Source: Bacteroidia bacterium
Lineage (GTDB): Bacteria > Bacteroidota > Bacteroidia > Bacteroidales > Azobacteroidaceae
Reading direction: 5' to 3'
Assembly: GCA_025996895.1 (NCBI GenBank)
Contig: BNTW01000062.1
Span: 1 to 15,312 of the forward strand
DNA length: 15,312 bases
The notes beneath the pieces were generated by a model. The model was not told the DNA's origin. It worked only from the letters and a program-made list of their open reading frames with translations, and ran no database searches. Below, in pieces: positions 1,953 to 15,304 of the stretch; the stretch's first letter is position 1; the number at the start of each line of letters is the position of its first letter. Made by a program: the position numbers and the translations under genes.

Positions 1953-2075
1953 TTATTTCCGAAAGGGTTGCCGATCATCGCTTTCCATCCGGCTCACCAA
2001 TGTCCGTTTGAGTTTATCCAAGAAATTCGTCCGGTCGCCTTTCACTCGGTTTTTGATGCTTGCCGGTCCATCCAT
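1953..2075 (-). CDS. possible 40-residue basic peptide, or a gene relic
   Basis: The minus strand is open from ATG 2075 to TAA 1953, starting inside the last codons of the CotH gene in another frame. The peptide (with RTNFLDKLKRTLVSRMESDD and ending RQPFRK) is strongly basic and amphipathic. It does not read like random AT-rich sequence, and the DNA from 1,960 to 2,045 is visibly richer in G+C than its surroundings. It may be the 3' remnant of a gene lost in the rearrangement that truncated the neighbouring regulator. No family is recognised, and the ATG may not be real because the frame could have come from further upstream. Confidence 0.22.
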   Translation of the reverse strand: MDGPASIKNRVKGDRTNFLDKLKRTLVSRMESDDRQPFRK

Positions 2076-3352
2076 TCCAACCTCTCCTTCAACCAATTTT
2101 TTAGATAGCCGACTTCTCCTGCATAACTGCCGGGTAAAATGGGATTAAACCAGACTACTTTGTCTAAGACAGGCCAGCGTTTAAAATTATTTTGCTGTGA
2201 CATTTCCATTTTTTCAGCCCACTCGTCTATAAACGGATTTAAATCGTCCAGTTTTCCACTGCGCAGTTCTTTCCAACGGTCATTGAACATTTTTTCAAAT
2301 TCGGGATGAGAGAAAAATTGTTGATACCATGCCGCATCTCTGGCTCGCCAGCCGCTTGTTTTTTCACAATCGAGATAGTTGACATTTCCAAACGCAATAT
2401 CATAATCCCAAACAGGACCGAAGTATAATTTATCGTCATTTCGATTTTTATAAACAAAGGTACTTAAATGCAGTTGCCCATCTACATTTTTCGATAATTC
2501 GTTTACTAACAGATAATCTATAAAAGATTTTAAATCCAGATATTTAGGCAGTTCGGTTACGGTATTTATTCCGTCTTTACCATACAGTATATCCTCTATT
2601 TTTTGGATATAATTTTTAATATAGTTTTTTTGATAGGCTGTAATATCTTCCGGAGTTTTGATGCAAAATACCATATCCGCTCTCGCCGGTTTAAACCATT
2701 CCGGTTCGCCGTAACGTCCGTCTATCTCTAATAAATAGCCTCCTGTAATATTTGCATCCGTCGGTTTCAACTCAGGGATGTTTACCCGGTCTTTATCTAC
2801 TCTTATCTGCTCGCATAACAAATAATTGCCGATATAATCACCATTAAGAATGACATCTACATATTGATTGCGGGGCGTATAAGCAAAATCCATACGCCGG
2901 CTCACTTCAAATGCAAGCTGGTTGCGCATCAGGGTTTTATCCGAATAATTTGCCAACAGCACCCAATGTTTGCTTTTTGGCATACCTAAAATTTCAGCAG
3001 ACTTGCTTAACTTCAAACGGTAGGGTTTCTTTGCTAACGTCCAAGAGGTGTTTCCCCGACCTTTTATCTCGGTTTCCGCTTCAAAAAGTTTTTCAGTAAT
3101 CTCTCCCTTGTTGTTTCGATTCTCTATGCTTATAACAGCGTTTAGATAGACTTCTTTTGACACTATCGGAGAAGCATTGGTGGTATTGATTGTCAAAAGA
3201 GGAAAATATAAGTTTAATTCAGTTTTATTGACGCTTAAAGTATCTTCTTTGACGCTTAAAGTATCTTCTTCTTTTTCATCAATGCTATCCGAACAAGCAA
3301 TGATTGAAAGGAATGGGAAGAGTATAATCAGAGATAATATCCGTTTGTCCAT
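2042..3352 (-). CDS. CotH-kinase-family lipoprotein
   Basis: CotH proteins are atypical protein kinases first described in spore coats; many bacterial homologues are exported. The 436-residue product begins with a lipoprotein signal (LSIIAC, Cys20) followed by an acid-rich stretch (SDSIDEKEED), the pattern that sends Bacteroidetes lipoproteins to the cell surface. The CotH domain is visible from about residue 65: GRGNTSW at 98-104, KKPYRLKL at 108-115, LLANYSDKTLMRNQLAFEVS at 132-151, GNYLLCEQIRVDKDRVNI at 175-192, GGYLLEIDGRYG near 204, FIDYLLVNELSKN near 277 and the acidic GPVWDYDIAFG at 312-322. A 7-residue unit (EDTLSVK) is tandemly repeated near residue 30. It starts 38 bases after the stop of the transglutaminase-like gene, so the two are probably co-transcribed. 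The substrate is unknown; the family call is firm. Confidence 0.88.
   Translation of the reverse strand: MDKRILSLIILFPFLSIIACSDSIDEKEEDTLSVKEDTLSVNKTELNLYFPLLTINTTNASPIVSKEVYLNAVISIENRNNKGEITEKLFEAETEIKGRGNTSWTLAKKPYRLKLSKSAEILGMPKSKHWVLLANYSDKTLMRNQLAFEVSRRMDFAYTPRNQYVDVILNGDYIGNYLLCEQIRVDKDRVNIPELKPTDANITGGYLLEIDGRYGEPEWFKPARADMVFCIKTPEDITAYQKNYIKNYIQKIEDILYGKDGINTVTELPKYLDLKSFIDYLLVNELSKNVDGQLHLSTFVYKNRNDDKLYFGPVWDYDIAFGNVNYLDCEKTSGWRARDAAWYQQFFSHPEFEKMFNDRWKELRSGKLDDLNPFIDEWAEKMEMSQQNNFKRWPVLDKVVWFNPILPGSYAGEVGYLKNWLKERLEWMDRQASKTE
3229..3270. repeat. two perfect tandem copies of a 21-bp unit inside the CotH gene
   Basis: The unit TGACGCTTAAAGTATCTTCT plus a final T occurs at 3229-3249 and again at 3250-3270. 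Being a multiple of three, it adds one seven-residue EDTLSVK unit to the flexible acidic linker after the lipidated cysteine. Copy number could change by slippage without breaking the frame. Confidence 0.9.
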
Positions 3353-3390: not shown

Positions 3391-5265
3391 TTATATCCAT
3401 TTTTGATTTCCGTTTTGAAAGATAAATATTCTTCCCCCTCTTTTATCAATTGTTATATTCTTCACATTCAGCAAAGCATTCGTTGGCACTTGATATGTTA
3501 ACGGATATACGGAAGCTTTCTGTTTTCCCAAAGATTGCCATTCTTGACCGTTCCAAAAGAACAACTCATAGATTTGATCCTCATATATACCATGAACATC
3601 TCCGGTACGGGGGAGATAATGTATCTCACTAATTTGTTTCGCCTCTCCCAAATCCAACCCTGTCCATGAATCATTACTATCCGCATCAAAATAAGTACTG
3701 GTATTGCCGTCAAAAGCTTTTTCATAAGTCATAGTCTGATTAGTAGGCCAAACTCCTTTTGTTCCAATTGATATTCCTTGAAGTTGTATTTTATTGTTAT
3801 CATAGAACCTTATTTCTGCCACATTGCAATACGCCTCTTTGTCTTTTGGTGAAACATATCGAACATAACGAAATTTTTTATGATTTTTGATTTTGACCGA
3901 TTGAAAATAATTGCCGGGAACTTCTTTAATAATATGTAATACGTGGGCATCACTAAAATCACTGTGATTAGCTCCCTCGAATATACCTGATACCATTCGT
4001 GGAAATCCCAAAGTATCGGATGGGGCTATTTCACCTATTGAAATCGCTTGACAATGAATTGTATCCGGTTCAAAAAACTTAATTTCATTATTTTCATTCA
4101 ACATAAAGGGATAATTAACAGGAGTTTGTGTTTTATTTGAATAAAACGTGGGCATATATAACACATTTTTATTAACGGAATACCGTATTTTTTGCTGATC
4201 AACGTCTCCCCAACCGATAAGATTCCACTGTTCGATACCCCAAGCAGCAAGCGATCCTTTTTCTGACGGATAGACAGAAGAAAAGCGTATGGGTATTTCT
4301 ATATCCATATATCCGGAGTATTCTAATGATACATCCTTTATGAGGATATTCTCTAATCCCAATGGCAAACAAGTAATACTATTTTCTTGATTCGCAAACA
4401 TTCTACGAAATTTTTTTGTAGTAGATAGCGGCAAACCAGGTCCTATTTCCGTTCCTAAAAAGGGAATATGATTGCCAAGACTATCGGAAACAGTATTCCA
4501 TGTATGTCCGTGATTATAATTATACCATTTCGGAGTAAAATCGATGGTGACCGGAACCCCCAAAGCACGCATAACAAAGACAGCCAAAGTGGATATTTCA
4601 TCACATGTGCCTCGTGTGGTAGCCATCAGCATGGAATAATTCATTTGAGAAAAATCTTTGTCTATTCGGAATGTGGGTAACAACCGGTTTACTTCGGCAC
4701 AAGCTGCCACGGCTGTAATATTGGACTGTTTCTGAAACAAACGGTTGATGTCGGCGAAACTTGCCAGCACTTTCTCCCGCCAATTTTCTAATGGTTCGTT
4801 ATTTACTCTATAAGGCAAAATTTCTTCGCAGAAAGTATTGAATGTAATATATTTTCCCCAAGGTTGTTCCCTCCATACTTTAAACGCCATTTCAATATTG
4901 TTGATCAGATAATCAGCCGTAATATATTTTACGTCTTCTTTTACAATTGGGTTACCTAACTTATAAGTATCCAATACCATTTGTTTGTCGGACGAACTTG
5001 TCCATCGTAAATTGACGGTAGCAACATCATTCCATGGCGCATCGTAGTATTCCGAATATTTGCCCGGCATATTCATTATTAGGAACTCCGTTGCCCGAAG
5101 TTTCAGGCTGTCTGCCGGATCTTGACTGTAATACTTCAACACCTGTTCCAATTCGGAACGGTTATCACCTGCTTGTTGCAGCACGGATGCTATTTCCTGC
5201 GAGTAACGATGATGAGTACAGGAAAACAAAAAATAAGAAATCAAAAGTAAAAAAAGTTTTTTCAT
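3391..5265 (-). CDS. transglutaminase-like lipoprotein with C-terminal discoidin (F5/8 type C) domain
   Basis: The 624-residue product starts at ATG 5265: MKKLFLLLISYFLFSC gives a lipoprotein signal with Cys16, seven bases after the stop of the thioredoxin gene. An in-frame ATG at 5346 lies inside that gene and adds no signal, so it was rejected. The middle carries a transglutaminase-like core with catalytic Cys221 (RGTCDEISTLA), His254 (NHGHTWN) and a possible Asp261. Residues about 425-490 resemble a partial carbohydrate-binding beta-sandwich, and 495-620 a clearer F5/8 type C domain (AFDGNTSTYFDADSNDSW, then DLGEAKQISEI). There are no acidic residues directly after Cys16, so it may face the periplasm. 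Family members act as proteases, amidases or cross-linkers. Its place beside a peptide-precursor locus allows a processing role, but that is inference. Confidence 0.85.
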   Translation of the reverse strand: MKKLFLLLISYFLFSCTHHRYSQEIASVLQQAGDNRSELEQVLKYYSQDPADSLKLRATEFLIMNMPGKYSEYYDAPWNDVATVNLRWTSSSDKQMVLDTYKLGNPIVKEDVKYITADYLINNIEMAFKVWREQPWGKYITFNTFCEEILPYRVNNEPLENWREKVLASFADINRLFQKQSNITAVAACAEVNRLLPTFRIDKDFSQMNYSMLMATTRGTCDEISTLAVFVMRALGVPVTIDFTPKWYNYNHGHTWNTVSDSLGNHIPFLGTEIGPGLPLSTTKKFRRMFANQENSITCLPLGLENILIKDVSLEYSGYMDIEIPIRFSSVYPSEKGSLAAWGIEQWNLIGWGDVDQQKIRYSVNKNVLYMPTFYSNKTQTPVNYPFMLNENNEIKFFEPDTIHCQAISIGEIAPSDTLGFPRMVSGIFEGANHSDFSDAHVLHIIKEVPGNYFQSVKIKNHKKFRYVRYVSPKDKEAYCNVAEIRFYDNNKIQLQGISIGTKGVWPTNQTMTYEKAFDGNTSTYFDADSNDSWTGLDLGEAKQISEIHYLPRTGDVHGIYEDQIYELFFWNGQEWQSLGKQKASVYPLTYQVPTNALLNVKNITIDKRGGRIFIFQNGNQKWI

Positions 5266-5272
5266 CCGGTTG

Positions 5273-6115
5273 TCAAAATAATTTATCAATATAATCACTT
5301 GCATTCTCAATGCTTCCCCTAAAAATAGCGTGTCCATTTTTGTCAAAGATTAATACGGTAGGATACTTATTCACACCCAACTCTATTAAAATAGAATCTT
5401 TCATATTCAAACGATATACAGGAAATGAATAACCTCTCTTTTGGATTGTTTCAAAAGCTGCACTTTCCGTATCCTGTTCTATTTTTGCATTCATCGAAAT
5501 TATGGAAACGGTAGAATTGTCTTTATATTTATCATACAAATCTTGTACTTTAGGGAATTTTCTGAAACAAACGCCACAACCTGTGTACCAAAAATCAACG
5601 ACAACATACTTGCCGGAAAAATCACTTATAGAACACATTTCTCCTTTTTCGTCTGTGAATTGAAAATTTGGAATAACAACCATTTCTATTTTACCGGTAA
5701 ATGTTCCGAAATTTAATTTATGAATCCATATATCATAGCCCTTGAAATAAATAAAAAGACAACTGACAAGGGAAAATGTGAGTACAACTGTTTTACCTGT
5801 TTTGTTTGATTTATAAAACAAGTAACCCATAATAATTCCGAATAAATGAAATAAAAAATCAAGCAGAGAAATTAATGTGTCCGGCATCCACCATATCCGC
5901 AAAGGTATTTGCAAAAGAGAACATCCTATTAATGTGCTTATAAAAATATATTCGGATTTTAATTTTACGGAATATTTTTTTACCAAAATATTTAAAAACA
6001 AAAAGAACAGAATAAATGTAATAACAGAACAAAGGGCAAAAGACCAAAATCTTATCGGACTTGTAACCAGTTCAAGAAGACAAGTCCAAAGGACTATTTT
6101 AAAGAAATGTTTCAT
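5273..6115 (-). CDS. membrane-anchored TlpA-type thioredoxin-like disulfide oxidoreductase
   Basis: The 280-residue product has four probable membrane spans (about 22-45, 56-74, 82-101, 109-125), then a linker and a periplasmic thioredoxin-fold domain (about 148-280). Visible signatures are the redoxin entry FQFTDEKGE, the active site WYTGCGVCF (Cys180 and Cys183) and the cis-proline in NKYPTVLIFD (Pro252). TlpA-type proteins reduce or isomerise disulfides outside the cytoplasm. The gene follows the eight-cysteine peptide precursor, from which a 40-bp palindrome separates it, and ends seven bases before the transglutaminase-like gene. The context makes it a candidate maturation enzyme for that peptide. 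The fold is firm; the direction of the redox reaction and the substrate are inference. Confidence 0.85.
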   Translation of the reverse strand: MKHFFKIVLWTCLLELVTSPIRFWSFALCSVITFILFFLFLNILVKKYSVKLKSEYIFISTLIGCSLLQIPLRIWWMPDTLISLLDFLFHLFGIIMGYLFYKSNKTGKTVVLTFSLVSCLFIYFKGYDIWIHKLNFGTFTGKIEMVVIPNFQFTDEKGEMCSISDFSGKYVVVDFWYTGCGVCFRKFPKVQDLYDKYKDNSTVSIISMNAKIEQDTESAAFETIQKRGYSFPVYRLNMKDSILIELGVNKYPTVLIFDKNGHAIFRGSIENASDYIDKLF

Positions 6116-6205: not shown

Positions 6206-6245
6206 TATGATTGGACTATCCAAAATTTTGGATAGTCCAATCATA
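6206..6245 (-). terminator. 40-bp perfect palindrome after the peptide-precursor gene
   Basis: Bases 6206-6245 form a perfect inverted repeat with 20-bp arms (TATGATTGGACTATCC with its complement around CAAAATTTTG). One base separates it from the precursor's TGA (6249-6247). On the minus strand it is followed by AATTTTTAAAAAATG, so it can act as an intrinsic terminator, though the T-run is short. The hairpin could instead protect the 3' end of the precursor mRNA or attenuate transcription into the thioredoxin gene. Confidence 0.7.
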
Positions 6246-6246
6246 T

Positions 6247-6915
6247 TCAGATATTTTTGCATAGTCCATTACATGGAGCAAGTCCAAGTAAACCGCATCC
6301 CCAAGACGATCCATCACAATCATCATTACTACAATATTTTGTTACTCCACACCAAGAATCCATTTGATTACAACCGCAACTTGGCTTCTCAGAACCACTC
6401 TTTAATCTAATTCCTGTCGTGTTCATCTGTATTCCACCTTGTTTATCAACCACCTTGTTTCCTGTTAACGCAATAGACCCAACTTGATTGAGAGTCCAGC
6501 CAAGCTCTTCTTGAGCATATTCAATCCACTTGTATTGAAATAAGTCATATTCTTCGGACTCTTCTTTTGTTCTCTCTTTTGAAAACCAGTTCGGATTATC
6601 AATAACTTTTTGAGAAAGGGCTTCGATATGACTTTTTTCTAATTCATTCCAATCCAAGGACAAAACTTCTTGCAATTTTTGCAACCAAAATTCTTGCTTT
6701 TGTTCAGGAGCGAATGCAACATAAGTTGCACGATTAACACTTTCATCCAATTGTAGCCAACCTTCTCTTGTCATTTGTTGAATATCAACTAAATTCTCTT
6801 TTACCCAAGCATTTACCTCTTTATCACAACTATACACTTCTTCATCTTGTGAACAAGAAAATAATGCAAAACACATAACAATAACACACGCTTTAATAAC
6901 AATTTTTAATTTCAT
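6247..6915 (-). CDS. fulvocin C-related peptide precursor, surface lipoprotein leader plus eight-Cys tail
   Basis: The 222-residue product has a lipoprotein signal ending CFALFSC (Cys21) followed by SQDEE, like the Bacteroidetes surface-export signal. A helical, Trp/Glu-rich middle (about 30-165) contains motifs such as TREGWLQLDESVNRATYVAF. The last 46 residues, from KPSCGCNQMDSWC, hold eight cysteines at 180, 182, 189, 195, 200, 207, 215 and 219. The spacing CxC-x6-C-x5-C-x4-C-x6-C-x7-C-x3-C closely follows my recall of the 45-residue myxobacterial bacteriocin fulvocin C (CxC-x6-C-x5-C-x5-C-x6-C-x6-C-x-C), including a WC/YC-like aromatic-Cys pairing and GCG. This fits the Bacteroidetes family named bacteriocin fulvocin C-related. 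Antimicrobial activity is not shown by sequence. The tail may be cleaved off or may stay as a disulfide knot on a surface lipoprotein. Confidence 0.75.
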   Translation of the reverse strand: MKLKIVIKACVIVMCFALFSCSQDEEVYSCDKEVNAWVKENLVDIQQMTREGWLQLDESVNRATYVAFAPEQKQEFWLQKLQEVLSLDWNELEKSHIEALSQKVIDNPNWFSKERTKEESEEYDLFQYKWIEYAQEELGWTLNQVGSIALTGNKVVDKQGGIQMNTTGIRLKSGSEKPSCGCNQMDSWCGVTKYCSNDDCDGSSWGCGLLGLAPCNGLCKNI

Positions 6916-7003: not shown

Positions 7004-7435
7004 CTAAAATAGATTAAATATACCTTTCTCTTTATCTGTAACTTCTCCTTCAATCTTCAATATTATAACATCTTCGGTCGCATTTGATTTTACATAAATG
7101 CTCTTGGAAAATCTGCCTGAAAATCCTTTAGGATTGAAAATGATTTTAACAGACCCTTTATTTCCCGATTCTACCGGCTCCTTAGTCCATTCCGAAACTG
7201 TACATCCACAAGAGGTTGTCACTTTATAAACTATCAAAGGTGCATTTCCCTTGTTTTCAAAAAGAAAAGTAGCATAAACCACAGAATCTTTTTTTAGATT
7301 GATTGTTCCAAAATCATGTTTCTTGCTGTCAAATTGAATGGTTGCTTTTTTTTCTTGTGCCGAAACACAATTCAGCATTAAAACTGCTGTCAGCATCAAT
7401 AACAGCCTCATTCCGCTCTCTTTAATTTTTGTCAT
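7004..7435 (-). CDS. DUF1573 secreted protein
   Basis: The 143-residue product has a signal peptide (MRLLLMLTAVLMLNCVSAQ, cleaved near residue 26) and a single Ig-like DUF1573 domain: FDFG-type entry KHDFGTINLKKDSVVYATF, the conserved TTSCGCTV (Cys76, Cys78), IIFNPKGFSGRFSKSIYVKS and a final IEGEV strand. The ATG at 7435 overlaps the stop of the ligase-like gene (ATGA), supporting translational coupling. An inner ATG at 7411 gives the same signal peptide and could be the real start. DUF1573 proteins are common extracytoplasmic proteins of Bacteroidetes with no settled function. The CGC motif beside a cysteine-rich peptide and a thioredoxin invites a redox or chaperone role, but that is guesswork. 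Confidence 0.85.
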   Translation of the reverse strand: MTKIKESGMRLLLMLTAVLMLNCVSAQEKKATIQFDSKKHDFGTINLKKDSVVYATFLFENKGNAPLIVYKVTTSCGCTVSEWTKEPVESGNKGSVKIIFNPKGFSGRFSKSIYVKSNATEDVIILKIEGEVTDKEKGIFNLF

Positions 7436-9012
7436 AAATCATTTAATTTTTGTTGAATTTCCTGTTGAATATTTTTTATTGTTGGCGACATCACTTTTAC
7501 CGGCTTTTCAATAATCTTATTGGCTATCTCCAAAGCATTTTCTTTTTCTCCCGTAACCTCATAGAGTTTATACAATTGGTATAATGGCATAAACTTTACC
7601 GGACACATATTCGATGCTTTTATATAATGGAATTCTGCTTCTTGATATTGTTGCATGTTTTGATAATTATCCGCCATCAACATCTGCAAATCATAATCCT
7701 CCCAAAGTTTTTCACATTCCTGCGCAATAGCTAAACTTTTATCATACTGCTTGGCAACATTCAACTCGGCTGCATAATTATAGAGAAACAGTTCACTGTT
7801 TGCCAATCTTTTATGTAAATGTTCGTACATGGGCAGCATTTTTTCCGTTTTTCCAAGCAGTGATTGGTTGGCACAATAGCGCCAAAGCATTTCTGCCGAC
7901 AAATGATTGTAAATTTCCGCACAGGACAATATAATGACCGGAATCATCATTAATTTTAATGATTGGATGATTATTGATGGTATTTTGACCGGATATTTTG
8001 CCTGATGAATAATGACAATCAGGCTAAATATTCCCATTATCCATATAAAAGGATAAGTTAAAGGGTACGAGAAAAAAGCAAATACGGCAATGGACAATAA
8101 ACTCCATCCGGCAATCCAAACAAGCATGTTTTTACTCCGGTTTCGATGGAAGGAGTGCCATAAAAACCACACAAAAGCAAGAAACAAAATAAATCCTGCC
8201 AAGCCGTAATTGGTCAGCAGTAATAAATATTCATTAAAAGGACGATTTACATTATCTGCCAGCATTGCGTATTGGCTATCGGGATGTTCAGCAAAATACC
8301 TTGCCTGATAGTTCATGTAATTGGCTTTAAATCCTCCATGTCCGTATCCAAGCAAAGGTTTATCTTGAATCATCTCATAAGTACATCGCCAAATCAGCAA
8401 ACGTCCGTCAGCGGAATCTTTTTTCAGAAAATACAAACCCGAAAGAGCTAATACCAAAGAAACAGACAAAATAATAATTTTCGATTTTGTTTTTATCTTC
8501 AATTGGTAAAATAGCATGAATAAGGCAACGACAAACAGCGCGATTATTCCCGCACGTGAGGCGGATAACACGACTGCTACACCTATTACCGCAACTGACA
8601 CTAAAGCATACCATCGTTGCCAAGTATATGATTTTCTGATAAAATAGAAGGGAATTGGAAATCCGGCGCACAAACAGGCGGCAAATCCGGCAGGATTGTC
8701 AAAACTGCCGGTAATACGAAAGCCGTTAACAGCAGGAAACATTCCCAGATATTGAAAAATCCCATACAGAGCTTGTGCCATACACGAACCGGTAATTATC
8801 AGGCAAAAGAAAAGAATTATCTTTTTTTGTTGTATTCTGCCCGTTGGATAGAAAAAAGAAAATACAATGCCAATCAATATCAAAACCATAGCACAAAACA
8901 GTGTCCAATACCATTTAGGTGCGATTTCTCCATTCACAAAACAGGAAGAATTTAGAAATAAACTTCCTACGCAAAGCATGAATAGTAATATGTACTTAAT
9001 AATTAGTTTCAT
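7432..9012 (-). CDS. O-antigen-ligase-like membrane protein with TPR tail
   Basis: The 526-residue product carries about ten to twelve hydrophobic spans up to residue 365, then a soluble tail with TPR-like helices (about 380-505; QMLMADNYQNMQQYQEAEFH and LYQLYKLYEVTGEKENALEI). Wzy/WaaL (Wzy_C) superfamily features are visible: GSFDNPAGFAA near 102, SASRAGIIAL at 150-159, DKPLLGYGHGGF at 217-228, then a long periplasmic loop and NEYLLLLTNYGLAGF at 260-274. Such proteins transfer or polymerise lipid-linked glycans, and some glycosylate proteins. The usual HN before the NEYL-type motif is replaced by RPFN. It is coupled by ATGA to the DUF1573 gene. It may modify a product of this cluster or simply belong to envelope-glycan synthesis. 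The family is fairly secure and the substrate unknown. Confidence 0.8.
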   Translation of the reverse strand: MKLIIKYILLFMLCVGSLFLNSSCFVNGEIAPKWYWTLFCAMVLILIGIVFSFFYPTGRIQQKKIILFFCLIITGSCMAQALYGIFQYLGMFPAVNGFRITGSFDNPAGFAACLCAGFPIPFYFIRKSYTWQRWYALVSVAVIGVAVVLSASRAGIIALFVVALFMLFYQLKIKTKSKIIILSVSLVLALSGLYFLKKDSADGRLLIWRCTYEMIQDKPLLGYGHGGFKANYMNYQARYFAEHPDSQYAMLADNVNRPFNEYLLLLTNYGLAGFILFLAFVWFLWHSFHRNRSKNMLVWIAGWSLLSIAVFAFFSYPLTYPFIWIMGIFSLIVIIHQAKYPVKIPSIIIQSLKLMMIPVIILSCAEIYNHLSAEMLWRYCANQSLLGKTEKMLPMYEHLHKRLANSELFLYNYAAELNVAKQYDKSLAIAQECEKLWEDYDLQMLMADNYQNMQQYQEAEFHYIKASNMCPVKFMPLYQLYKLYEVTGEKENALEIANKIIEKPVKVMSPTIKNIQQEIQQKLNDL

Positions 9013-9064: not shown

Positions 9065-9850
9065 TCATCGGAAATCGGTTTTGCCACGTCCTTTTCTCTG
9101 GTTTGACCAATGATCTTGCGGAAGTTTATACTTCTGCACAAATACCCACTGCCGGTAACTTTCAAATCCTGCATACCAACCATATCCCAAAAACAGAACA
9201 TAAGAACCAAGTATTAACATTTTTAGAATACGCATTTTGATTTTTGAGACAATAACATAAATGAGAACACTACATACAGGAATAATTGCTATTGGAAATA
9301 GCATCGATGCTCCGGTACTATTTATTAATGTTGCCCCATATACTAACAGAAAAGGAGCAATGATGACCCAAGGAACATACTTTTGAGTTGCGCCTAACCG
9401 AAATGCAACATAAGGAGCTGCCAAATAAATTATGCCAACAGCAAAAAACTGGAATATCTGATTAAAATCACCCGGCATAAGTGCAAGAATAAAAGAAATG
9501 ACTGTTATTAATGCCAAGACAAAGTGTTTTTGTACTAACTTCCATTTTGATAAGAAATAGCCGGACAAAAAACCGGACAATAGCCATACGGCATAGACAG
9601 TTAACAAAATCCACATCTGTGAATGATAAAACGAGAATCCCCGTGTAATACGAAATGCGATATACATTAATACAGGCAATGCTGCTGTTATATAAATAAT
9701 ATTCCGCTTCCTTTTGTTAATTATCAAAGAATAGATCAAAAAAATCAACATAAGGATTAAACCATACGCTTCTTTGTTCCGCATCTCTGATAAGAAGCCG
9801 GATATTATAATGGTAGATATAGACAATATACAATTGTTATATTTTTTCAT
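9065..9850 (-). CDS. multi-spanning membrane protein, possibly the membrane half of a TlpA-like protein
   Basis: The start at ATG 9850 (MKKYNNCILSISTIII) is preferred. An in-frame ATG at 9937 lies inside the upstream small gene and only adds an out-of-frame reading of it. The 261-residue product has seven or eight hydrophobic spans (about 5-22, 27-44, 50-67, 79-100, 110-126, 132-150, 159-175, 184-202, 209-226), then a short basic tail (GFESYRQWVF, ending KGRGKTDFR). The last span followed by an aromatic linker resembles the junction before the thioredoxin domain in the TlpA-type gene at 5273-6115, but here the frame stops 30 residues later with no thioredoxin fold. It starts 10 bases after the upstream stop and is probably in the same transcript. 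No specific family is recognised. Confidence 0.6.
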   Translation of the reverse strand: MKKYNNCILSISTIIISGFLSEMRNKEAYGLILMLIFLIYSLIINKRKRNIIYITAALPVLMYIAFRITRGFSFYHSQMWILLTVYAVWLLSGFLSGYFLSKWKLVQKHFVLALITVISFILALMPGDFNQIFQFFAVGIIYLAAPYVAFRLGATQKYVPWVIIAPFLLVYGATLINSTGASMLFPIAIIPVCSVLIYVIVSKIKMRILKMLILGSYVLFLGYGWYAGFESYRQWVFVQKYKLPQDHWSNQRKGRGKTDFR

Positions 9851-10198
9851 TTTGATTCGCCTATTCAAGTGTAAAAGTAAATTCATCATACGGTTTTGTT
9901 CGCCATGCAAACTGTTGAGTGGTTGGCGAAGCTGCAAACAGAGGGGAAAATGTTTTTACCTTGACCGTTTTTCCATCGGGTAAAAATTCGAGTATCCGCA
10001 GCCAACCGTCGCCGCCGTTTCCATGCCAGCCACCGCCCAGCGCCTGTGCATTGAAGACCATCGTCCATGAAGCGGGGTCGCTTAATTTCGGTTCGCTAAA
10101 CTTCGTCTGTTGCGCCGAAAGTGTACCAACTGTCAGTAACAGGAATACTGCTACAATACTTTTTTTCAAAAAACAAGTTTTCATATTATTGTTATTTT
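9841..10198 (-). repeat. direct repeat, left member (contains copy A)
   Basis: Bases about 9841-10198 match about 12199-12555 in the same orientation. They differ at roughly a dozen positions within the coding part, with no gaps, and the start codons lie exactly 2,357 bp apart. Similarity fades shortly beyond the start codon on one side. On the other it ends at ATGAAAAAATAT, the first codons of the membrane-protein gene. Confidence 0.85.
9861..10184 (-). pseudogene. copy A: 107-residue secreted remnant of a metallophosphoesterase
   Basis: It has a signal peptide (MKTCFLKKSIVAVFLLLTV, cleaved after LSAQ) and then KFSEPKLSDPASWTMV. This is how the secreted calcineurin-like phosphoesterases of Bacteroidales begin, as I recall, just before their first metal-binding strand. 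It is joined directly to FNAQALGGGWHGNGGDGWLR and ILEFLPDGKTVKVKTFSPLF, which read as the extreme C-terminus of the same family. The whole metal-binding core (probably 250 residues or more) would be missing, yet the frame is kept. A near-identical copy lies at 12218-12541 (105 of 107 residues the same). It starts 16 bases after the LamG gene and ends 10 bases before the membrane-protein gene. It cannot be an active phosphoesterase; whether the short protein has its own role is open. Confidence 0.65.
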
Positions 10199-10200
10199 TT

Positions 10201-12156
10201 TTATAAGTTATTTTGCAGAAATTTATTTATTGACAGTGTACATTTTTTTGTACCTTGCAACGGCAACCAAAGCAACGTTTTGGATTCCGTCAGCCCCTGA
10301 ATCACACTCACTGTCGGTTTTATTTTAGAACCATCGCTTTTGATATTTACTCCTTCATTATCGGTGTTCTCCAACACGATACACACATTGCACAGCGGCG
10401 ATGTTTCCGATGCGTGCAAGACTAATTTCAAAGAAGCCGGACTTGCATCCGTTTTGCGTAAAATGTATGCCCGCTGATACACATCGTATCCTTTGTTTTC
10501 CCAACCGGCTGATAAAACTTCTAATTTCGGCGGCATATTCCAGGAGCGAGCCAATGGAATCACTGTTTTGACATCCTGCGTTGTCGCTCCGATGAGTGAA
10601 CGGTAAATGGTCGTATTGTTCGGACCAAATTCAACATTGAGTAATCGATTGCCGTTTTTGTCATACGGAGTAGCATCCAATGCTGTAGAAGACACCTTGT
10701 CGGGACGCACCGCGTCAATACTACACGAATTGATTTGAGCAAGGGGCCAATGACTCCACCAAGCAAAGTTTGATACCCCCTCCTTTGCCTTTGCTGTCCA
10801 CGGTATCGCAAGCCGCTTTTCGTCGAAGATAAAAAACGGTTTATATTTCGATTTCGTGTTAATCATTTCAATCGGCTGGTATTTCGTTTGATTGAAATCC
10901 AGAGGCGGTTCTTTTTCCCAAGAATACGTTGCCGTATTGCCGTCCAAGTCTGCCATCGTAACCGCCGCCCATTCGAGATTATCTTCGCTTCGTGTACCGG
11001 CAGCGTTGAGCGGCAGAATTTCGTCGAACTCATATCTTAGATTATCCGGCGTGCAGTGCAGCGAATGTAATATCTGTTTCCGCACCGCTACGCCGTCGGG
11101 ATAAATTGTCCAGTATTCATCCGACCAATTCCCCCAGCCGCTTTCGTCTTCCATCGCTATTTTGTTCTGCACGCTTGATACGGCATTACGCCAGTGTATC
11201 ACCGAGCGAACAGGCGTGTTCTCTATGATTCTAACGTGTGAAAAGCGACATTGTTTGTCGCTTAACGCTTCATAACATTCTCCCAGTCCGAGTGCGCTTT
11301 CAGCGCACTGGTCAGTAATCCAGATGTTGTTTTCACTGACGATTGCCGGTACATAACTCGTTCCTCGCCAAAAAACATATTTTACCGGAGAATCCGGGAA
11401 CCGAACGACAACATCGGGATGGTCGGATACCCGCCAGGTATTCTCCCATTCTTCGTCATCGTATTTCAAACGGCTATAAAACGCGCCGAAAGCACCGGGT
11501 TTGATTTCGCTGCCGGGCAGTTTTGGAAACGACAATACCTGCTTCCCGATTCGTTCGTCGGAAGCAACCGTTTTGCTCCAACTCTCGAAATTCGGAAGTG
11601 CTTCCCCGACTTTTACGTTCTCGAACTTTCCTTTGAACGTCATCCAAACTTTGTATTTGTCCAAGTCGTTTCTGTCATAACCGGGAATGAACGTATAAAC
11701 CGGAATTTGTTTGATTTGACATTTTCCGGTTTCAACGGGAATATCTTTGCCTGCGAAGACGGCGGGCTGCGTGAACGGTTTCGTTGCAACGCTCTTTCCG
11801 TTGACGTACAGCGTCATTCCCACTCCTTCGGTGTAGGACATTGCCACGTGCGACCATTTCAGAAGCGGAATATCTTCCGGCGAATAACAGAGTTGCTGTT
11901 TGCCGTCGGCATACATACTGCCAACGAGTTTGCCCTGATAATTCAAACCGAGGCAAAACCCTTTCCAGTCCTGCTCCACTTGATTGACAATCGCATTGAT
12001 GTTAAACGGATACTCCTGCAGAGCAATCCACGCTTCAACAAACAACGTTTTAGGAGATTCCGTTTGTTTTGCCGGTGTTTGTCCCGTCGCTGTAAATGCA
12101 CTGCAAAATGCAAGTGTGCAAAGCGTAGTCAGTTTGATTAAAAATAATAATTTCAT
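10201..12156 (-). CDS. exported LamG-domain protein with an unrecognised large C-terminal domain
   Basis: The start at ATG 12156 (MKLLFLIKLTTLCTLAFCSA) gives a 651-residue product with a signal peptide and AAAAGG six bases upstream; ATG 12162 is an equal alternative. In-frame ATGs further up lie in the upstream small gene and are rejected. Residues about 38-130 form a LamG/concanavalin-like domain (LFVEAWIALQ, WKGFCLGLNYQGKLVGS, WSHVAMSYTE, TLYVNGKSVA). The rest (about 180-650) is probably beta-rich, with conserved-looking WRGTSYVPAIVSENN, ESALGLGECYEAL and SGWGNWSDEYWTIYPDG. This could be a polysaccharide lyase or hydrolase domain, but I cannot name the family. It lies between two copies of the small remnant and downstream of a rhamnosidase, so a role in the same glycan breakdown is likely. 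Confidence 0.7.
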   Translation of the reverse strand: MKLLFLIKLTTLCTLAFCSAFTATGQTPAKQTESPKTLFVEAWIALQEYPFNINAIVNQVEQDWKGFCLGLNYQGKLVGSMYADGKQQLCYSPEDIPLLKWSHVAMSYTEGVGMTLYVNGKSVATKPFTQPAVFAGKDIPVETGKCQIKQIPVYTFIPGYDRNDLDKYKVWMTFKGKFENVKVGEALPNFESWSKTVASDERIGKQVLSFPKLPGSEIKPGAFGAFYSRLKYDDEEWENTWRVSDHPDVVVRFPDSPVKYVFWRGTSYVPAIVSENNIWITDQCAESALGLGECYEALSDKQCRFSHVRIIENTPVRSVIHWRNAVSSVQNKIAMEDESGWGNWSDEYWTIYPDGVAVRKQILHSLHCTPDNLRYEFDEILPLNAAGTRSEDNLEWAAVTMADLDGNTATYSWEKEPPLDFNQTKYQPIEMINTKSKYKPFFIFDEKRLAIPWTAKAKEGVSNFAWWSHWPLAQINSCSIDAVRPDKVSSTALDATPYDKNGNRLLNVEFGPNNTTIYRSLIGATTQDVKTVIPLARSWNMPPKLEVLSAGWENKGYDVYQRAYILRKTDASPASLKLVLHASETSPLCNVCIVLENTDNEGVNIKSDGSKIKPTVSVIQGLTESKTLLWLPLQGTKKCTLSINKFLQNNL

Positions 12157-12198
12157 ATTCATCCTTTTATATTTATTTAATAATTGTCTAGTTTTCAA

Positions 12199-12555
12199 TA
12201 TTTTTTCATAAACTCGCTTATTCAAGGGTAAAAGTAAATTCATCATACGGTTTTGTTCGCCATGCAAACTGTTGAGTGGTTGGCGAAGCTGCAAACAGTG
12301 GGGAAAATGTTTTTACCTTGACCGTTTTTCCGTCGGGTAAAAATTCGAGTATCCGCAGCCAACCGTCGCCACCGTTTCCACTCCAGCCACCGCCAAGCGC
12401 CTGTGCATTGAAGACCATCGTCCATGAAGCGGGGTCGCTTAATTTCGGTTCGCTAAACTTCGTCTGCTGCGCCGAAAGAGTGCCGACTGTCAGTAACAGG
12501 AATACTGCTACAATACTTTTTTCCAAAAAACAAGTTTTCATATTATTTTTATTTA
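12199..12555 (-). repeat. direct repeat, right member (contains copy B)
   Basis: This is the second member of the pair described at 9841-10198. Downstream of the stop it still carries ATGAAAAAATAT, here followed at once by TGA. This reads like the first four codons of the membrane-protein gene left as a scar. Confidence 0.85.
12218..12541 (-). pseudogene. copy B: 107-residue secreted remnant of a metallophosphoesterase
   Basis: It has the same layout as copy A: signal peptide, LSDPASWTMV, then the joined C-terminal tail GGDGWLRILEFLPDGKTVKV and onward to FTFTLE. Only residues 7 (Glu instead of Lys) and 54 (Ser instead of His) differ. The DNA also differs at nine silent third positions, and the stop is TAA instead of TAG. 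It starts 21 bases after the rhamnosidase-like gene and ends 61 bases before the LamG gene, so it is probably co-transcribed with both. Both copies share the identical deletion joint, so the deletion came before the duplication unless gene conversion copied it later. Confidence 0.65.
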
Positions 12556-12562
12556 ATTGTTA

Positions 12563-15304
12563 TTACAATAATTTTACAGGACCCACCATACCCATCGGAT
12601 ACCATTCTTGCCATGACATCCATGAATTATCAATATTGTCTTGGGGGTTCGATTTGAAATAATTGCCCAAGGTGGTGGTAATTTTAATTTGAATCGTTTT
12701 TTTACCTGCCTTTGCCAGATGTTCGGGAATACGGTACAAATGCCGTCCATACCAGCGACAACCTAATTTTTCGCCATTCAGCACGACTTCCGAAATGCCA
12801 TAGACTTTTCCTAAATCCAACCAATTGTACGATTCCGAACCGGCAATGGTTTGTTCATACAACAAGTGACCGGCAAAAGAACGGGTTGTTTCGTCTGTTG
12901 ACAAATCCGACAAGGCGGTAATGTTCCGTTTTTGTGCAGTCCCGTTAATATGCTCCATGCTCAGATGCCACTTTTGCAGTTCTGTGCCCTGAGTTTCGGC
13001 GGGGAGTAGAGGCGCCGGCGTGTCTTCGGCAGTTGTATCGAATACAATCAGTTGCGAAGCGGCCGGTGGTAAATCTAAAGTTAAGGTGTTGCCAACAGCA
13101 GCCGGATAGAGGCAGCGTTCGCCGGTTTCGATATTCCACAACCATGCCCGCCCTTTTGATTCGGGGAAAACGGTTTTCAATACGAACCGCTTGTCGGCGT
13201 TGCAATTGCTTACAAAGAAAATATCCTTGTCTTTTGTCTTTTGGCGTATCTGGTTGACATACAAGTTGGGCCGGTCGATTTCCATATAAGGCTTGATGCC
13301 GCATTTTTGCTGTACGCCTTTAAACCAGGCAATCAAATCGTCGCCGGGCGCTTCCACGGTAAACACCCGTGACGCATGCGTATGCTTTAGGGCGCTAATC
13401 GTCTGCGCCACTTTCCGGTCGTTCTTTTTGTAATCTTTCAGGCCGGGTGATTTATAAGGTTCTTTTCCCACAAAAATCAGTTTTCCTCCTTTTTTCACGA
13501 AATTAGCCAGTTTCTCAGCCGTTGCGGGCATGATGGATTCCACTTCCACCAGGATAAGGGTATGGTATTTTCTGCTGTTATAAGTCAGGAAACCGTTTTC
13601 TACAACACTTTGCCGGATGATGAATTCGCTTGTATAGTCGCAACTGTTCCCATTTTTGTGGATGCTGTCCCACACTCTGTATTGGTATTTCGGATGCTGT
13701 AATTCGGGGTACGGTTCACGTTGCGGACCATAGAGCGTCCACATATCGGCAAGCGGATGCATCACGGCTATGTCGGCAAAGGCTTCACTCTCCTGCAGTA
13801 CAAGAGAAAGGCGGGTTTTGTAAGCCGTGAATAATTTGAACCAGGGCCACCAGAGATTGCGTTCGCTGAGGAACGAGCCATAGCGAACCCATCCGGGAAA
13901 CGGCACTTCCAACGGACTATAGTTGAAGCCATGAAGTATGGAATGATTCACACCGGATAGATTGCTCATGTCGCCCGTGAGTTTCAAACGCTCCAATGTC
14001 GTGTTGAAAAGAGCGCCGGAATTGGTGAGTTCTTCACAACTGATAATTTTCTTGCCGGTATAGTGAGCGGCAGACGCTACATATTTGTTGATACCGCAAT
14101 TGGAAGGTATCTCTCCGAGGTCGGTGTATGCGCCGCGCTTTAACCATGTTTCACACTCGGGAATGTCGATTGAAAGCGAGGCGTCTAATAGATGGAACTC
14201 GCGCCCATAAGCCTGTACTCTTGATTTTAGACCATGCCGGTGACACCATTCATTATAGGTACCCAGAAAACGCTCGTTCATCAGATCCATGCAAGTGGTG
14301 ACAAAATCGTAACGAACGCGGGCTATCTCCTCTTTGGCTGTCCTGTCCAATTGCGTAATTTCGCCTCCTTTAATGGGTACTCCCATAGCGCCGACTTTAA
14401 CCAAAATGAAAGGCAGGTAGGGCAAGACATCGTATCCTTTACGTCTTTTAAATTCTGCTAAAAGGTCATTACACCAGTTGGCGCCTTCCAGTTCCATGCT
14501 GTCGCAAAACATAGACCGGAAGCCGGTTATGCCGGTTAATTTCGGCAAAAGGTTGTCGGAAATACGATTGAGAAAATTCCGTACGACGGTCTTGTCATAG
14601 TGATTCAATACCGGTCCGCTTCCTCCGGGTGCTCCAAAAATAACCGCTTGATAACCGGTGAGTTTTATCAATGCGTATAAGATATGTTCACCGGCAGGCA
14701 CCGTGATCCGGATGGGGTTGGTATTTTTATCAAAAGTCAACCATTCGGGAGCGGCAAATGTATCCATCTGTACAGGAGCCAAACACAAGGCATAGACCTC
14801 TTTGAGAGTGTCTTTGTGTGGAGAATAGATTTCGGGCGATGCTTTCGCGAACAAATCGTCCGCATCAAGGGTAATGGTAGCGGGTCCTTCTACTTTCAGG
14901 CTGGACAAGGTCATCAGTTGCGTTTGCTCGTCACGTGTCAGGGTTTCGGCGCCAAACGGAAATCCGGTGCCAACGAGCATGTCGCAAATCATTCCGCGTT
15001 CTTCTGCGCCTTTCAGCGCAACTTTCACCATTTCTATCCATTCAGGGCTTAACCACTCCATAGAGGGAATAGATAAGTCGTCGCCGCCGGGGAAAGCAAT
15101 AGGATTGATTTCCACACCGCCTATTCCGGCCTCTTTCAGCACATCCAACTCACGGAGAATTTCTTTGGCGTCTAATTTATCGCCGTTCCACCACCAACGT
15201 ACAAAAGGGCGGGCAGTAACCGGCGGGTTACGAAACGACTTGAACAGCATGTCGATGTCTGTTCTTTTTGCGCTTTCTTGCAAAGGAGAAGAATAGACGC
15301 GCAT
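12563..15304 (-). CDS. GH106-like alpha-L-rhamnosidase, probably N-terminally cut by the window edge
   Basis: GH106 enzymes remove terminal L-rhamnose from plant or algal glycans in the Bacteroidetes periplasm. Visible features of the family are FRNPPVTARPFVRWWWNGD (24-42), the barrel start LKEAGIGGVEIN (56-67), RGMICDMLVGTGFPFG (103-118), the acidic FCDSMELEGANW (266-277, probable catalytic region with Glu271/Glu273), FKRRKGYDVLPYLP (285-298), RVQAYGREF (362-370), SIDIPECETW (378-387) and ISCEELTNSG (421-430). A GATase-like segment follows near 590-630 (HTLILVEVES, FVKKGGKLIFVGKE), then a C-terminal galactose-binding-like sandwich ending GPVKLL. ATG 15304 gives no signal peptide, and the frame stays open to the window end (PFMRVY), so the true start and signal peptide are probably outside. 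The exact substrate is uncertain; related clan members have other specificities. Confidence 0.82.
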   Translation of the reverse strand: MRVYSSPLQESAKRTDIDMLFKSFRNPPVTARPFVRWWWNGDKLDAKEILRELDVLKEAGIGGVEINPIAFPGGDDLSIPSMEWLSPEWIEMVKVALKGAEERGMICDMLVGTGFPFGAETLTRDEQTQLMTLSSLKVEGPATITLDADDLFAKASPEIYSPHKDTLKEVYALCLAPVQMDTFAAPEWLTFDKNTNPIRITVPAGEHILYALIKLTGYQAVIFGAPGGSGPVLNHYDKTVVRNFLNRISDNLLPKLTGITGFRSMFCDSMELEGANWCNDLLAEFKRRKGYDVLPYLPFILVKVGAMGVPIKGGEITQLDRTAKEEIARVRYDFVTTCMDLMNERFLGTYNEWCHRHGLKSRVQAYGREFHLLDASLSIDIPECETWLKRGAYTDLGEIPSNCGINKYVASAAHYTGKKIISCEELTNSGALFNTTLERLKLTGDMSNLSGVNHSILHGFNYSPLEVPFPGWVRYGSFLSERNLWWPWFKLFTAYKTRLSLVLQESEAFADIAVMHPLADMWTLYGPQREPYPELQHPKYQYRVWDSIHKNGNSCDYTSEFIIRQSVVENGFLTYNSRKYHTLILVEVESIMPATAEKLANFVKKGGKLIFVGKEPYKSPGLKDYKKNDRKVAQTISALKHTHASRVFTVEAPGDDLIAWFKGVQQKCGIKPYMEIDRPNLYVNQIRQKTKDKDIFFVSNCNADKRFVLKTVFPESKGRAWLWNIETGERCLYPAAVGNTLTLDLPPAASQLIVFDTTAEDTPAPLLPAETQGTELQKWHLSMEHINGTAQKRNITALSDLSTDETTRSFAGHLLYEQTIAGSESYNWLDLGKVYGISEVVLNGEKLGCRWYGRHLYRIPEHLAKAGKKTIQIKITTTLGNYFKSNPQDNIDNSWMSWQEWYPMGMVGPVKLL

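Follow-up and report, generated by a model that had tools for sequence, protein, structure and literature searches.

Introduction

Fulvocin C of Myxococcus fulvus, reportedly described by Tsai and Hirsch in 1981, is a bacteriocin and a free 45-residue peptide. Its cysteines are separated by spacings that we take to be x1, x6, x5, x5, x6, x6, and x1.

Several papers describe further systems that bear on the locus studied here. Fulvocins have been placed among the myxobacterial RiPPs (PMC8708641). Surface lipoproteins of Bacteroidetes carry an acidic lipoprotein export signal (LES) after the lipidated cysteine, with SDDDD in B. fragilis and SDDFE in F. johnsoniae (PMC5080379), and the packing of SusG into vesicles needs a negatively charged motif of the export-signal kind (PMC6222051). 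The BSAP toxins of Bacteroidales are surface lipoproteins, and the C-terminal domain of BSAP-1 is needed for receptor binding and specificity (PMC12853789). For methylamine dehydrogenase, MauE has been speculated to form disulfides and the role of MauD is called unclear (PMC7794033).

Here, we analysed a 15,312-nt stretch of Bacteroidales DNA (the window) that encodes a lipoprotein of the NCBI family NF033852, "bacteriocin fulvocin C-related protein". The family had already been named by NCBI, and what is new here is its gene setting. Searches covered the open literature, with most subscription journals outside their scope; they returned no functional paper on NF033852 or related lipoproteins, the name NVEALA was absent from the texts searched, and by title no paper on Bacteroides bacteriocins and disulfide-bearing surface-exposed lipoproteins, or on the propeller together with PF14055, dealt with these families.

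Results

Architecture and family of the protein

The gene at 6247..6915 on the minus strand encodes a fulvocin C-related lipoprotein of 222 residues. Residues 62-220 matched NF033852 at 112.4 bits (cut-off 35), covering profile positions 2-150 of 150, and on this sequence match the product is a member of the family, which is present once in the window's genome. Pfam returned no family for the protein at E up to 1, so that neither MACPF nor NVEALA (PF14055) was found, and no metal or redox family of NCBIfam or Pfam was matched. The nearest homologue with an organism name (P0004) is labelled "Bacteroidales bacterium".

An earlier note, made from the letters of the sequence, had placed eight cysteines within the last 46 residues, behind a leader of the lipoprotein type and a helical middle, and all three features were borne out. 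The predicted lipoprotein signal peptide (residues 1-21; 6853..6915, minus strand) has a lipobox ending in FSC, whose Cys21, the expected lipidation site, is present in 66/66 aligned homologues. SQDEE (6838..6852, minus strand) stands right after Cys21 and resembles the published LES; counted by alignment column, at least two D/E occupy positions +2 to +6 after Cys21 in 63/66 homologues. AlphaFold2 modelling of the whole protein (66 sequences; mean pLDDT 89.4, pTM 0.81) placed helices at residues 32-150 (6466..6822, minus strand). In the 222-residue translation, the eight-cysteine tail (residues 177-222; 6250..6387, minus strand) has its cysteines at positions 180, 182, 189, 195, 200, 207, 215, and 219, with the spacing C-x1-C-x6-C-x5-C-x4-C-x6-C-x7-C-x3-C. 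In the model of the full protein, the blocks of residues 181-222 had mean pLDDT values of 86 to 92, and the tail modelled by itself (14 sequences) reached a pLDDT of 47. Therefore, the confident tail in the whole-protein model needs to be taken with caution.

An 18-bp terminator-like hairpin followed by a T-rich tail lies just past the stop codon (6206..6245, minus strand), and 0/60 random windows drawn from the window sequence were as stable. The hairpin was considered as a general feature of such loci and rejected, as 4/17 loci (L020 excluded) had one that was equalled by at most 3/60 random windows.

Conserved cysteines and variable loops

A protein search returned 16 proteins and a profile search 73, each including the query. 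After exclusion of seven short or partial hits, 66 of the 73, window protein included, were aligned. Counted from just before Cys180, eight tail cysteines were found in 60/66 homologues, nine in 3, and six in 3, and the eight tail columns were occupied by Cys in 66, 65, 64, 65, 66, 66, 66, and 63 of 66 sequences, respectively. The loss of these cysteines among homologues, which the earlier note had named as the outcome that would speak against it, did not occur, and cysteine conservation exceeds chance. Cys30, Trp77, and His96 are likewise invariant in the alignment (66/66). Not counting Cys21, Cys30 (window 6826-6828) brings the cysteines of the mature protein to nine, an odd number; by eye it is absent in L018, L024, L100, L101, and L104 and is thus not universal despite its presence in all 66 database homologues.

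The residues between the cysteines vary more than the rest of the protein. Among 15 close homologues (the 16 minus the partial P0012), mean pairwise identity was 0.64 for the leader (residues 1-60), 0.46 for the helical part (residues 61-150), and 0.41 for the tail, falling to 0.27 when the shared cysteines were left out of the tail, whose identities here and below are depressed by uncertain loop alignment. Region-wise identity was also compared for nine homologue pairs picked by hand. In six pairs among P0001-P0005, the tail outside the shared cysteines showed 0.22 to 0.44 identity versus 0.57 to 0.70 for the helical part. The pair P0009 and P0011, each on a contig listed at 10,654, had identities of 0.98 in the leader, 0.77 in the helical part, and 0.19 in the tail, whereas the gap was milder for P0014-P0015 and P0013-P0017 (tail 0.65 and 0.63 versus helical 0.82 and 0.86). 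Fixed cysteines combined with variable loops are, as far as alignments can tell, the pattern of diversifying disulfide-rich peptides.

Tail-less proteins consisting of the helical part were found at L023 (9529-9975), L027 (3189-3623), L028 (9869-10315), and L029 (9748-10227), indicating that the helical part also exists without the tail. The tail-less gene of L023 is a second gene beside a tailed one, and the tail-less protein of L029 has, by eye, a plain signal peptide.

Kinship to fulvocin C

A database search for the fulvocin C sequence gave no copy, and the 45-mer used here is a provisional sequence. It matched positions 108-148 of the 150 in NF033852 (E 1.1e-6); the score of 29.5 bits is under the cut-off of 35 that applies to whole proteins. 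A tail model was then made from the 66 database tails plus 17 taken from the fetched loci, leaving fulvocin C out, and on this model the provisional sequence scored 27.8 bits, compared with 16.3 for the best shuffle with fixed cysteines and 13.6 for the best full shuffle (2,000 each). With a model of the 66 database tails alone, it scored 24.4, and none of those 4,000 shuffles exceeded 19.6. As the provisional fulvocin C sequence outscored all shuffles with fixed cysteines, the likeness exceeds cysteine spacing. The interpretation in the earlier note was borne out in part: a relationship between the tail and fulvocin C is supported by this result, by the profile match, and by the curated family name, subject to the provisional fulvocin C sequence. 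In the HMM alignment, 7/8 cysteines of that sequence fell on family cysteines, and one is displaced, Cys38 being extra and the last cysteine position of the family corresponding to fulvocin C Asn43 or lying outside the aligned part.

Distribution and carriage

Distribution was scanned with NF033852 at E up to 0.001 in overlapping samples, the window's own genome being included in the phylum, order, and relatives counts. The family was found in 4/395 genomes of the phylum sample (3 above cut-off), 8/393 genomes of the order sample, 2/58 relatives, the second of which (G807) has the helical part without the tail, and 8/199 genomes of the family of G029 (7 above cut-off). In addition, the contig scan gave one Alistipes contig, and one Bacteroides finegoldii record was found among plasmids. 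The fulvocin-type gene looks accessory and patchy.

Plasmid or phage carriage was considered and rejected. The single matching record labelled plasmid (NZ_OY725911.1; L042 and L043) also bears prfB and many polysaccharide-use genes in several sets, and for this reason it may be a chromosomal piece. Phages gave no match, and no plasmid came close to the window at the DNA level.

Gene neighbourhood in the window

On the minus strand, the fulvocin-type gene is the third of six genes in the order Wzy_C-TPR, DUF1573, fulvocin-type, TlpA-like, transglutaminase-discoidin, and CotH, with successive gaps of -4, 88, 131, 7, and 38 nt. The first (7432..9012) encodes a membrane protein of the Wzy_C type (O-antigen ligase superfamily; PF04932, 1.9e-19) with a C-terminal TPR-like part whose match is weak and below cut-off, and the second (7004..7435) a DUF1573 protein with a CGC motif (PF07610, 3.4e-32). 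Downstream of the fulvocin-type gene lies a gene (5273..6115) for a thioredoxin-like protein of the TlpA/ResA type, with N-terminal hydrophobic segments and a CGVC motif (Pfam AhpC-TSA 2.5e-12, residues 148-261), which had no MauE match in Pfam. It is followed by a gene for a transglutaminase-like lipoprotein with an F5/8 discoidin-like C-terminus (3391..5265), assigned from Pfam matches below gathering scores and a core Cys and His recognised by eye; its start codon was chosen from the leader, the open frame starting further upstream. The gene for a CotH-family lipoprotein (2042..3352; PF08757, 1.4e-52), 38 nt past the transglutaminase-discoidin gene, is a candidate member of the system only. 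Signal peptidase I had no match in the window.

Just upstream of the Wzy_C-TPR gene, window positions 9065-9889 encode a membrane protein of 274 residues that has roughly seven hydrophobic segments and matched no NCBIfam family. The idea that it corresponds to the membrane part of the thioredoxin fusion seen at L130 was rejected, the likeness having an E of only 0.15. A 300-nt direct repeat is present at 9857-10156 and 12214-12513, the copies being 96% identical and 2357 nt apart. Each copy lies inside a near-identical exported ORF of 107 residues, one just upstream of the membrane protein gene and the other just upstream of a large gene.

Linkage to redox genes across tail-bearing loci

Twenty-eight reference proteins served as tblastn queries (E up to 1e-5) for neighbouring genes at 18 tail-bearing loci (the window, L015, L018-L026, L031, and L100-L105); matches ending before the tail (G757, G807, and G861) were excluded. 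The gene of L020 is split over two frames, both pieces being below cut-off, and the open frame of L105 is the second half only. As controls, 20 stretches of 19.9 kb were taken from nine family-bearing genomes, one of which (G757) has tail-less forms only. A thioredoxin-domain gene was found within about 1.3 kb in 14/18 loci versus 0/20 controls (Fisher p 3e-7), a count in which the loci are unequal in length, some lie at contig edges, related loci are non-independent, and five thioredoxin reference proteins come from counted loci, favouring those loci over the controls. The positive loci are the window, L015, L019, L022, L024, L025, L026, L031, and L100-L105, and a CxxC motif is present in all 14 linked proteins. 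Of the remaining loci, L021 matches such a protein in its membrane part alone; L018 has no thioredoxin-domain gene, with DUF1573 adjoining and MauE further off behind two intervening genes; and no thioredoxin-domain gene was found at L020 and L023 under the tblastn threshold used.

A DUF1573 gene was found in 8/18 loci (the window, L015, L018, L021, L031, L100, L101, and L104), and six of the eight proteins carry the CGC motif, which is missing in L018 and L021. With the same queries and threshold, the 20 controls gave no match to thioredoxin, DUF1573, Wzy_C, or transglutaminase-discoidin proteins, while MauE was matched in one and an ABC protein in two. The transglutaminase-discoidin gene occurred in 3/18 loci versus 0/20 controls (p 0.10), which is not significant alone. 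The B. finegoldii record has a discoidin protein, DUF1573, the fulvocin-type protein, TlpA, and, further on, an O-antigen ligase family protein. Like this record, L021 matches the window's families, some of them in broken frames. No immunity gene or receptor was recognised at the loci, and no transporter is common to all of them; ABC transporter genes lie near L019 and L024 and were matched at L018 and L105.

At L025, a gene for an RHS repeat-associated core protein (11636-12925) follows the thioredoxin gene. We also tried to use the TlpA-like protein as a pointer to further cysteine-rich partners. Among 247 genomes of the order, 12 (counting that of the window) had a match with an E of at most 1e-15, and three of the other 11 loci were inspected; the idea was rejected, as the neighbours in G493, whose match spans query residues 13-186, are by eye neither fulvocin-type nor small cysteine-rich proteins.

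A partly common gene set at NVEALA loci

In the window's genome, NVEALA was matched on contigs C12 and C16 only. On C12, the end of a transglutaminase-discoidin gene is accompanied by genes for an NVEALA peptide, a six-bladed propeller, a DUF1573 (Pfam) protein in which a thioredoxin-like CTNC is seen by eye, signal peptidase I, and a Wzy_C-TPR protein; on C16, transglutaminase-discoidin and NVEALA genes occur together with a lipoprotein gene whose propeller match is weak and below cut-off. Ten NVEALA loci were compared, derived from 13 matches above cut-off, with 11 weaker matches left out. The transglutaminase-discoidin gene was present in 5, the C12-type DUF1573 fusion in 6, signal peptidase I in 4, and Wzy_C-TPR in 4, one of the latter being a fragment located where the fetched stretch ends. 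L095 matched no query, and L094 and L098 matched the propeller only. Compared with the same 20 controls, which come from fulvocin-bearing genomes, the p values were 0.002 for transglutaminase-discoidin and 0.0004 for the DUF1573 fusion. The gene set of the window is partly common to the NVEALA loci.

L092 (8217-12667) encodes three NVEALA-type peptides whose leaders are alike and whose cysteine-bearing ends differ. On contig C121 of the window's genome (L086, 1198-5425), a transglutaminase-discoidin lipoprotein lies beside a radical SAM protein, whose best match is the YydG peptide epimerase family with 85 bits, far below the cut-off of 300; a 285-residue protein of the same locus may, by eye, hold a peptide leader. 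Eight transglutaminase-discoidin loci of this genome were counted, leaving out weaker matches on C82 and C50. A peptide-type neighbour is present at four of the eight (C62, C12, C16, and C121); C13 has Wzy_C, and no peptide-type neighbour was seen at C39, C35, and C144.

Discussion

We put it at close to even chances that the tail is a diversifying module rich in disulfides, which a dedicated redox operon folds, which is displayed at the surface, and which is probably aimed at related bacteria. We infer that the protein would be made as a lipoprotein and then exported, and that the TlpA-like (CGVC) and DUF1573 (CGC) thiol proteins may form or shuffle putative disulfides of the tail in the periplasm. 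The acidic export signal would direct display at the surface of the cell or of outer-membrane vesicles. The helical part would serve as a conserved carrier and the eight-cysteine tail as a diversifying, receptor-binding or membrane-active module against relatives of the producer, acting on the surface in the manner of the BSAP lipoproteins or after release in the manner of fulvocin C. In favour of this reading, we count the NF033852 match, the scores of the provisional fulvocin C sequence above all its shuffles, the divergence of the tail outside its shared cysteines, the P0009-P0011 pair, the acidic residues after Cys21, the thioredoxin linkage, and the use of BSAP-type surface lipoproteins as toxins by Bacteroidales. 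Against it, we count the pLDDT of the tail alone, the tails with six or nine cysteines, the odd cysteine number brought about by Cys30, the hairpin's being restricted to a few loci, the tail-less forms, the four loci with no full thioredoxin-domain neighbour, and the loci's lack of a recognised immunity gene or receptor and of a common transporter.

The strongest rival to antagonism is signalling, in which the tail would be a cysteine-rich signal or self-recognition ligand, displayed or shed after the same maturation, with a kin receptor and not a lethal site as its target. The overlap of the gene set with that of the small NVEALA peptides, which are apparently exported, bear cysteines, and have a leader, would suit this role, as would the variable loops and the fact that no immunity gene was seen at the loci. 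However, the sole functionally described relative known to us, fulvocin C, is a bacteriocin, and the patchy distribution (4/395 and 8/393) suits weapons at least equally; we consider signalling somewhat unlikely.

A quieter role, in which the surface lipoprotein is an ordinary one and its tail serves only as a structural or ligand-binding domain stabilised by disulfides, appears improbable to us. It agrees with the conservation of the leader and helical part and with a tail that is modelled well within the whole protein and poorly alone, but the loops between the cysteines diverge beyond the rest of the protein, and the tail matches, on the provisional fulvocin C sequence, a free 45-residue bacteriocin. 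The linked partners are thiol proteins, and Cys30 and His96 are invariant among the aligned homologues, which could point to a redox or metal-handling protein whose tail, with the TlpA-like and DUF1573 proteins as its partners, would be a thiol buffer or a metal site. This reading is set against the loci in which Cys30 is missing by eye, the kinship to fulvocin C, and the window protein's matching no metal or redox family, and we regard it as very improbable.

A redox gene adjoining most fulvocin-type genes offers a testable route to how such peptides fold and are displayed. Should the tails serve as weapons or as ligands in recognition, the means of antagonism of Bacteroidales would gain a disulfide-rich class. 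The partly common gene set would moreover tie fulvocin-type lipoproteins to NVEALA peptides. A wider idea, which we hold as possible yet doubtful, is that Bacteroidota have an interchangeable export-and-folding set, made up of the transglutaminase-discoidin lipoprotein, DUF1573 and thioredoxin-like redox proteins, Wzy_C-TPR, and sometimes a signal peptidase. This set would serve unrelated cysteine-rich peptides (fulvocin-type, NVEALA, and perhaps radical-SAM-modified ones), and the fulvocin-type ones would diversify in a conotoxin-like manner with a fixed leader, fixed cysteines, and hypervariable loops.

Compared with known systems, NVEALA (PF14055) loci are like the window in that they often have transglutaminase-discoidin, DUF1573, and Wzy_C-TPR genes, whereas their products are short peptides with a different leader, and a signal peptidase I gene occurs in 4/10 of them and not in the window. 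The BSAP proteins are lipoproteins with a lipidated cysteine, an export signal, and a C-terminal domain, to which Cys21, the signal-like SQDEE, and the tail of the window protein may correspond; in contrast, they have a MACPF domain that the window protein lacks, and only its leader resembles one BSAP family (E 0.076). MauE did not match the window's TlpA-like protein and was recognised among fulvocin-type loci only at L018, but MauD and MauE resemble the window in providing membrane and thiol-redox-type partners for one exported protein. Fulvocin C is a free 45-residue peptide, whereas the window tail ends a 222-residue lipoprotein with a helical part and has one cysteine placed elsewhere. 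The two are alike in seven of eight cysteines and in the pattern CxC...SDxC...GCG...CNG.
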